This document shows, one piece after another, positions 33,070 through 34,242 of a stretch of 64,000 nucleotides of DNA. The notes beneath the pieces were generated by a model. That model searched no databases, was not told the DNA's origin, and saw only the letters and a program-made list of their open reading frames with translations. The DNA is taken from NCBI RefSeq assembly GCF_000730285.1, contig NZ_CP007174.1, forward strand, positions 2,418,001 to 2,482,000, in the 5' to 3' direction. This DNA is from Candidatus Nitrososphaera evergladensis SR1 (lineage in GTDB: Archaea; Thermoproteota; Nitrososphaeria; Nitrososphaerales; Nitrososphaeraceae). The position numbers were made by a program, and so were the translations under genes. The stretch's first letter is position 1, and every line of letters begins with the position of its first letter.

Positions 33070-33324
33070 TCAGCGCCGCTTCTGTCTTGCCTTTCCTTTT
33101 CCGGATATTTTCAGGTAGCCTCGGCTGCCATCCTTTTCGTATTCGATGCTGACAGATTCCGCCTTGACTATCGATAGGGGCGCAACTTTATTCCTGCCAG
33201 TGACATACCCGATAAAGAATGCCGCAGCGGTGGGATAGCCGCCGTTGTAAACCTTGTCAAAGACATTGGCTTCGTGGAACAGCTTGACATCTTTTCTGGA
33301 AAGTGGGATGCGCTTCACAGCCAT
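33070..33324 (-). CDS. Small conserved protein, basic C-terminus
   Basis: 84 residues. KRIPLSRKDVKLFHEANVFD then YPTAAAFFIGYVTGRNKV and a basic tail KGKARQKRR. Unknown. TTTAAA (33353-33358) lies about 31 bases upstream, matching a start at ATG 33324 rather than the longer frame to 33573. Confidence 0.65.
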   Translation of the reverse strand: MAVKRIPLSRKDVKLFHEANVFDKVYNGGYPTAAAFFIGYVTGRNKVAPLSIVKAESVSIEYEKDGSRGYLKISGKGKARQKRR

Positions 33325-33352
33325 AGCAATTTGCCATATCGCAATACTGACC

Positions 33353-33358
33353 TTTAAA
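33353..33358 (-). promoter_or_regulatory. TATA-like element of the 33324 gene
   Basis: TTTAAA at the expected distance from the ATG at 33324. It decides the start within a frame that is open to 33573. Confidence 0.45.
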
Positions 33359-33392
33359 CACCACGCACGCGAGTGCATAATAATATTAAAAT

Positions 33393-33447
33393 CGTGGCTC
33401 TGCCGGGAGTACCATGGATCTCTGGAAATGGGTCCGGCAGAGCCACG
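33393..33447. repeat. Perfect 14-bp inverted repeat (hairpin) in intergenic DNA
   Basis: Left arm CGTGGCTCTGCCGG (33393-33406) and right arm CCGGCAGAGCCACG (33434-33447) are exact complements around a 27-base loop. The loop can extend the stem further with ACCAT and ATGGGT. It is GC-rich in an AT-rich surrounding and not followed by a T-run on either strand. It could be a structured RNA, a protein-binding site or the remnant of a small mobile element. Confidence 0.85.
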
Positions 33448-33614
33448 CAGGTATATGTATATACTACTGCTGTCGACTCGGCAAGTTTTACGGCCAAGCT
33501 CCAGCCTAAAACCAGTCGGTTTACAATGCAAGCAAATGCAATAGTGTAGGCAGTAGCAGCCGTGTGATGGCAAGCGACACTACGACGCACAAGAAAAAAA
33601 GAATATGCGCCAGC

Positions 33615-33857
33615 CTAGGTGTTATCTACTTCGTGTATCAGGTTTTTCATTATGATGTCGGTGCCATAGTCACCAAGAACATCGCGGATTGCCATGCTGA
33701 CCCTGGATACAGGGTACTTGGTGTCGCTTGAAAACCTGAATCCACTACGCTCAAGGTAGCGAAAAATGACCTGCATCACTTCATCGCCCAGCACATCACG
33801 CGAGCGCGAAAGCCCGGCCCGCAGTGACGATCCCCCAATTAACTCGTCCTGTTCCAT
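33615..33857 (-). CDS. Small helical-domain protein, paralogue of 31567
   Basis: About 80 residues from ATG 33857 (frame open to TTG 33887). LGDEVMQVIFRYLERSGFRF then YPVSRVSMAIRDVLGDYGTD and IIMKNLIHEV. The second half aligns with the 31567 protein and shares its Leu-Gly-x-x-Gly and Lys-x-x-x-x-Glu-Val positions. Tentatively a NitrOD5-like domain. Confidence 0.68.
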   Translation of the reverse strand: MEQDELIGGSSLRAGLSRSRDVLGDEVMQVIFRYLERSGFRFSSDTKYPVSRVSMAIRDVLGDYGTDIIMKNLIHEVDNT

Positions 33858-33887
33858 CAAATATGACAGTGTTGATCCATCACGCAA

Positions 33888-34242
33888 TTATTTTACTGAG
33901 TCGCCCAATACACAAAGAGATGTTGGGAGATTATACCTAATTGCGCGGGAGGTTTAGCAAAATGTCCCAGAGGCATCCTTCAGAGGCATATTGCGCGCGT
34001 TCCAAATGACGCGCAAACGGAAAAATGGAGAAGCAAAGCGATAATGATGATGATGAATAACACACGCAAAGGTGGGGGCGCAGGCGAGGGAACTTGGGAG
34101 AAATCCACCTGAATTAACCTGCAGCCCCCTGCTTGATTCAATATTACAATTTACTCTTATTGATAATAACATTATACCTAAATTGTGCGTGCTAAATGAT
34201 GTTTTGCGACACGACAATGCACAGTTTAACTGCGAAGGACCG
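33888..34242. other. 355-base region without a gene
   Basis: Contains an AT-rich nested inverted repeat: ACAATTTA (34146-34153) with TAAATTGT (34179-34186), enclosing TTATTGATAATAA (34158-34170). A GGGAGGT followed by ATG at 33962 opens only a 15-codon frame. No supported gene. Confidence 0.5.

Follow-up and report, generated by a model that had tools for sequence, protein, structure and literature searches.

The window (the whole 64,000-nucleotide stretch of DNA that was analysed) belongs to a genome of 2,954,373 bases in one contig (G000) and contains a perfect inverted repeat in a 290-bp spacer (33325-33614) between gene II and gene I, two co-directional orphan genes on the minus strand, with a MarC-family gene next after gene I. 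Five surrounding ORFs (those for a 337-aa and a 79-aa protein, gene II, gene I and marC) are also present in a sister species (G015), all of them on the minus strand. Gene I was matched in two of 70 genomes of the family (E 0.001) and gene II in six of the 70, closely in the two with gene I and weakly in the other four. Neither gene was matched in Pfam (E 0.1), NCBIfam or PADLOC (E 1), and no relatives of gene I were found by protein scans of genome_contigs and viral_contigs, which may omit records near the host genome. The positions of the features are given in Table 1.

Table 1. Features at the locus, with window positions unless another sequence is named, and their comparison with the sister species (G015)
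Feature	Position	Strand	Comparison
Gene I, 84-aa orphan protein	33070..33324	-	98.8% identical in G015
TTTAAA, candidate TATA box, 28 bp ahead of the gene I start codon (ATG)	33353..33358	-	conserved in G015
GCATAATAATATTAA, perhaps a decayed remnant of a mini-element	33377..33391		matches the inner right end of the G015 mini-element (117 bp) at 13/15 positions
Hairpin, left arm CGTGGCTCTGCCGG	33393..33406	+	
Conserved core, inner 10 bp plus loop	33397..33443		38/47 identical in G015, one compensatory change (T-A to C-G)
Hairpin, loop of 27 nt with CCATGGATCTCTGG	33407..33433	+	CCATGGATCTCTGG identical in G015
Hairpin, right arm CCGGCAGAGCCACG	33434..33447	+	
Best-conserved block between hairpin and gene II	33495..33546		43/49 aligned positions identical, 3 gaps
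T7 run, predicted U-tract terminator, 14 nt past the gene II stop	33600-33594	-	T5 in G015
Gene II, 80-aa orphan protein	33615..33857	-	96% identical in G015
117-bp mini-element, between gene I and hairpin	G015:C1:2203458-2203574 (L043:659-775)		

The marC gene of the sister species (G015:C1:2203965-2204575) is read in two overlapping frames with an apparent frameshift, and it shares 95% of its fourfold sites with the window (75/79), far above its neighbours. On the other side of the locus, in 33858-34242 beyond gene II, no gene was identified and mechanical ORFs are present.

The spacer carries predicted signals on both sides of the repeat. According to PMC8716108, archaeal termination relies on U-tracts, and the T run predicted as a terminator behind gene II fits termination of this kind. 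The stretch holding the candidate TATA box before gene I is identical with the sister species at 46/52 positions, and this TTTAAA was placed outside the top 1% by a home-made promoter matrix, which was built from 262 upstream regions, was weak and gave different motifs with different seeds. Judged by these two predicted signals, the U-tract behind gene II and the gene I promoter, the hairpin probably belongs to neither of the neighbouring mRNAs. The search for a conserved promoter from which an RNA could include the complete hairpin found none, and an RNA from the best TATA-like site on the plus strand of G000 (33382-33395) would start inside the hairpin. The best-conserved block of Table 1, which is more conserved than pooled fourfold sites (p 7e-5), could be a regulator site. 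Two AATGCAA-type repeats 10 bp apart, conserved with one change in the sister species, are located within it.

An earlier note on this DNA had described a perfect hairpin with 14-bp arms and a 27-nt loop able to pair further, in an AT-rich spacer and with no T-run. The arms were confirmed at their positions as 100% complementary, with 27 nt in between, and a T-run is indeed lacking from both immediate flanks. The description of the spacer as AT-rich was partly right, since the spacer minus the hairpin has 44% GC versus 51% in the window, and the 50 bp flanking the hairpin have 34% on the left and 44% on the right, respectively. Further pairing in the loop is weak, the plus strand giving only CCAT/ATGG with 4 bp. 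The folding z of the hairpin was -4.7 and -5.8 for RNA of the plus strand and the minus strand, respectively, and -6.5 for DNA. On the plus strand, the hairpin is part of the minimum-energy RNA fold in both species; on the minus strand of G015, it is absent from the 81-nt minimum-energy fold and present in the 119-nt one. The RNA folding z in G015 was only -0.5 to -1.0 in context, and that of DNA for the 55 nt alone was -2.5.

Chance expectation and conservation

No perfect repeat with arms of at least 14 bp and a spacing of 3-100 occurred in 40 Markov simulations of the 64-kb window, and the mean for arms of at least 13 bp in the same simulations was 0.05. By six simulations of 400 kb, a mean of 0.17 perfect repeats of at least 14 bp with a spacing of 3-60 was obtained, corresponding to about 0.03 per 64 kb. 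A sample of 400 kb from the host genome contained no perfect repeat of at least 14 bp, one of at least 13 bp and five of at least 12 bp, and the hairpin is the sole perfect repeat with arms of at least 14 bp (spacing 3-60 nt) in the 464 kb examined, namely this sample plus the window. The stem exceeds chance expectation for a 64-kb window. Since the simulated rate amounts to about one such repeat per 2.95 Mb, the hairpin is notable in the window and not impossible genome-wide.

The search of the genome for other copies of the arms, proposed by the earlier note, established the hairpin as single-copy: 10 matches of the arm pattern were obtained in the host genome (two by the hairpin itself and eight with one mismatch, against six for the reversed control), none of them a second exact arm, and no other copy of the hairpin was found in G000 or G015.

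Outside the window, the hairpin was found in a single further genome, that of the sister species, at the corresponding position. A covariance model of the two sequences was matched in two of 300 genomes of the order, G000 and G015 alone, in a search with stricter filters on genomes drawn from a larger group. When 481 kb were searched with the model, the best match beyond the locus itself had an E-value of 0.26 and was taken as chance. The loop pattern was matched at four bacterial loci in genome_contigs, also taken as chance (about 2 expected by our own estimate), and was without a match in the viral contigs. Repeats were scanned at 19 loci, which were the locus in G000 and G015, eight loci carrying weak relatives of gene II, and 9 of 11 other marC loci (L080 and L083 being outside the scan); a perfect repeat of at least 10 bp was present in five of the 17 other loci, and none was like this hairpin by eye.

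Comparison of the 14-pair stem between G000 and G015, two sequences only, gave nine unchanged pairs, one compensated pair (T-A to C-G) and four broken outer pairs. In this one relative, in which the fold was compared as the earlier note had proposed, pairing is kept over the inner 10 bp and lost over the outer four. The 4-bp CCAT/ATGG upper stem has two of its four pairs broken in the ungapped alignment and three kept in the consensus fold. A shuffle control (one compensatory pair in 247/500, cells paired in 57/500) was uninformative because there were only two sequences. In a drift simulation, which begins with this perfect stem and not with an ancestor, the share of runs in which at least 10 contiguous Watson-Crick pairs survived ranged from 0.1% to 4.4% for divergences of 38% to 19%, and 10 pairs were retained in 1.5% to 13% of runs with G-U counted.

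Fourfold sites were pooled from four neighbouring genes, with marC excluded as an outlier, and 122/196 were identical between the two species. The core of the hairpin exceeded this rate (p 0.005), and the p-value for the whole 55 bp (40/55 identical) was 0.07. In the spacer beyond gene II, 280/360 aligned positions were identical, with 25 gaps, and the core compared with it gave a Fisher p of 0.71; because that spacer is about equally conserved, the hairpin is not alone in this excess of conservation. The comparison suggests selection on the fold, as the core is more conserved than the pooled fourfold sites, but not more than the neighbouring spacer, because of which selection is not proven.

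Known RNA classes and a neighbouring mini-element

With Rfam, no family was obtained for the hairpin at the gathering score. The best match was below the threshold (E 0.052, 23.1 bits versus a gathering score of 90), and the three weak matches, with E-values from 0.05 to 0.42, were taken as chance, so a known RNA was rejected. The three tRNAs of the window are located elsewhere, none at the hairpin. A tiny coding ORF with its ATG at 33414 was also rejected: it has 31 codons here versus 14 in G015, and among 13 codons compared, seven were the same, none changed synonymously and six changed nonsynonymously.

The hairpin resembles bacterial intrinsic terminators in having a GC-rich stem in a spacer, and differs from them in its 27-nt loop and in the lack of a T-run at either arm; the minus strand continues with ATTTTAATATT and the plus strand with CAGGTATATG, and an intrinsic terminator was rejected. 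The sequences beyond the stem in G015 are GGTTTCG and GCCATATT. Like archaeal H/ACA and C/D guide RNAs, the element is small and contains a hairpin; unlike them, it shows no ACA box directly 3' of the stem when the two strands are inspected by eye, and it has no Rfam match at the gathering score. It resembles the intergenic small non-coding RNAs of archaea as a single spacer stem-loop outside the predicted mRNAs and restricted to a lineage, but unlike them it belongs to no Rfam family at that score and is known from DNA, in two copies. A U-tract, as in archaeal termination according to PMC8716108, stands elsewhere in this spacer.

In the sister species, a mini-element of the kind of the MITEs and TnpB-type elements of Nitrososphaera adjoins the hairpin. 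Its ends, GGTTATGTCAAGTC... and the complement of ...GACTTGACAGAACC, are an inverted repeat, and it is bracketed by an 8-bp target duplication, CGTACGAA, which does not bracket the hairpin. The end sequence is shared by further sites in G015, two of which are 1.3-kb elements encoding a TnpB-type protein with a TNB domain (PF07282). These TnpB-type elements (L065:246-1581 and L066:228-1551) have perfect terminal inverted repeats of 44 bp and 22 bp; inverted ends are unusual for tnpB elements of the IS605 type. In G000, seven one-mismatch matches to the end pattern and no exact one were obtained, against one for the control. The match of GCATAATAATATTAA to the element was equalled by 2 of 2000 shuffles.

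A possible structured RNA and its alternatives

The hairpin may represent the folded centre of a small structured RNA specific to this lineage, which would be made as a short independent transcript or within a longer one from the spacer; we favour this tentatively, as a good possibility that falls short of a probable one. The element, in the gene II-gene I spacer of a Nitrososphaera species, would form a GC-rich stem of 10-14 bp presenting CCATGGATCTCTGG in an exposed loop, and this loop could contact a protein or another RNA. Transcription of the hairpin, the strand used and the function of the loop as the active part are inferred. A structured RNA is favoured because such a stem is not expected by chance in the window, because the inner 10 pairs in G015 include one compensatory change and no broken pair while 10 Watson-Crick pairs are rarely retained in the drift simulation, because the core is more alike than fourfold sites, because the position is probably outside both mRNAs and because the plus-strand hairpin belongs to the minimum-energy fold of both species. 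It is weakened by the number of sequences, only two, by the broken outer four pairs and two of four upper-stem pairs, by the weak folding z in G015, by the lack of a conserved promoter and of an Rfam family, and by the p-value for the 55 bp and the equal conservation of the spacer beyond gene II.

A cis-acting DNA site is rather unlikely. A protein, perhaps as a dimer on the inverted arms, would control gene I by binding upstream of its promoter, and the symmetric change in both arms preserves the dyad required. The hairpin lies on the upstream side of the candidate TTTAAA, from which it is separated by 34 bp here and, after subtraction of the 117-bp insertion with one copy of the target, by 15 bp in the sister species, but the insertion as it stands puts the hairpin 140 bp from TTTAAA. 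The host genome is also without a second exact arm, and arms 27 bp apart are unusual for dimer sites, which counts against this explanation.

The stem-loop could also be carried by a minus-strand RNA that reads through or forms a leader, for example as a 5' leader or as a stabilising or processing hairpin between genes II and I, which is likewise rather unlikely. It is consistent with the common minus-strand orientation of the five shared ORFs, with the strong minus-strand folding in the window and with a TATA-like string just ahead of the hairpin on that strand in both genomes. However, that string would initiate an RNA inside the hairpin, the T run behind gene II and the conserved TTTAAA directly before gene I count against this explanation, and the hairpin is missing from the shorter of the two minus-strand folds in G015.

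A neutral origin, by accident or as a relic without function, is improbable; the inverted repeat would then be older than the species split and now decaying. The broken outer four pairs, conservation not above that of the spacer beyond gene II, occurrence in only two of 300 genomes and a simulated rate of about one such repeat in a genome of this size are all in agreement with it, but the inner 10 pairs, one of them compensated, have persisted at a divergence at which the simulations seldom retain them as Watson-Crick pairs, and the loop core CCATGGATCTCTGG is identical in G015.

The last option, raised by the earlier note, that the hairpin is itself the remnant of a mobile mini-element (a MITE or an insertion-sequence end), is very improbable and was rejected, since, although an element with inverted ends like those of the local TnpB elements and with a target duplication adjoins it in G015, that element is a neighbour which stops before the hairpin starts, the hairpin is unlike its ends and has no further copy in either species, and the spacer has no phage or plasmid match at E 0.01, just as the loop pattern has none in the viral contigs.

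For the structured RNA, a larger form was also considered, namely a new small RNA family of a Nitrososphaera sub-lineage made of the plus-strand hairpin plus about 33472-33546, for which the chance is slight. In the two-species consensus of the plus strand, a further helix, GTCGACT/AGTCGGT, is formed, which has a compensatory change of its own and includes wobble pairs that the minus strand could not make. Over the larger region, two compensated pairs are present in the consensus fold of each strand, and the helix is taken as a lead only, because it is absent from the minimum-energy fold of G000 and because the minus-strand consensus is compensated too.

By term searches and titles, no paper on small RNAs of Nitrososphaera soil ammonia oxidisers was found in an open-access library, and a term search of the main text of PMC7785015, on the transcriptome of N. 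viennensis under copper limitation, gave nothing on intergenic or non-coding RNA. As found, the hairpin is a well-defined single-copy element, which is unexplained and contradicts nothing known; if transcribed, it would be a concrete small-RNA candidate in soil ammonia-oxidising archaea.
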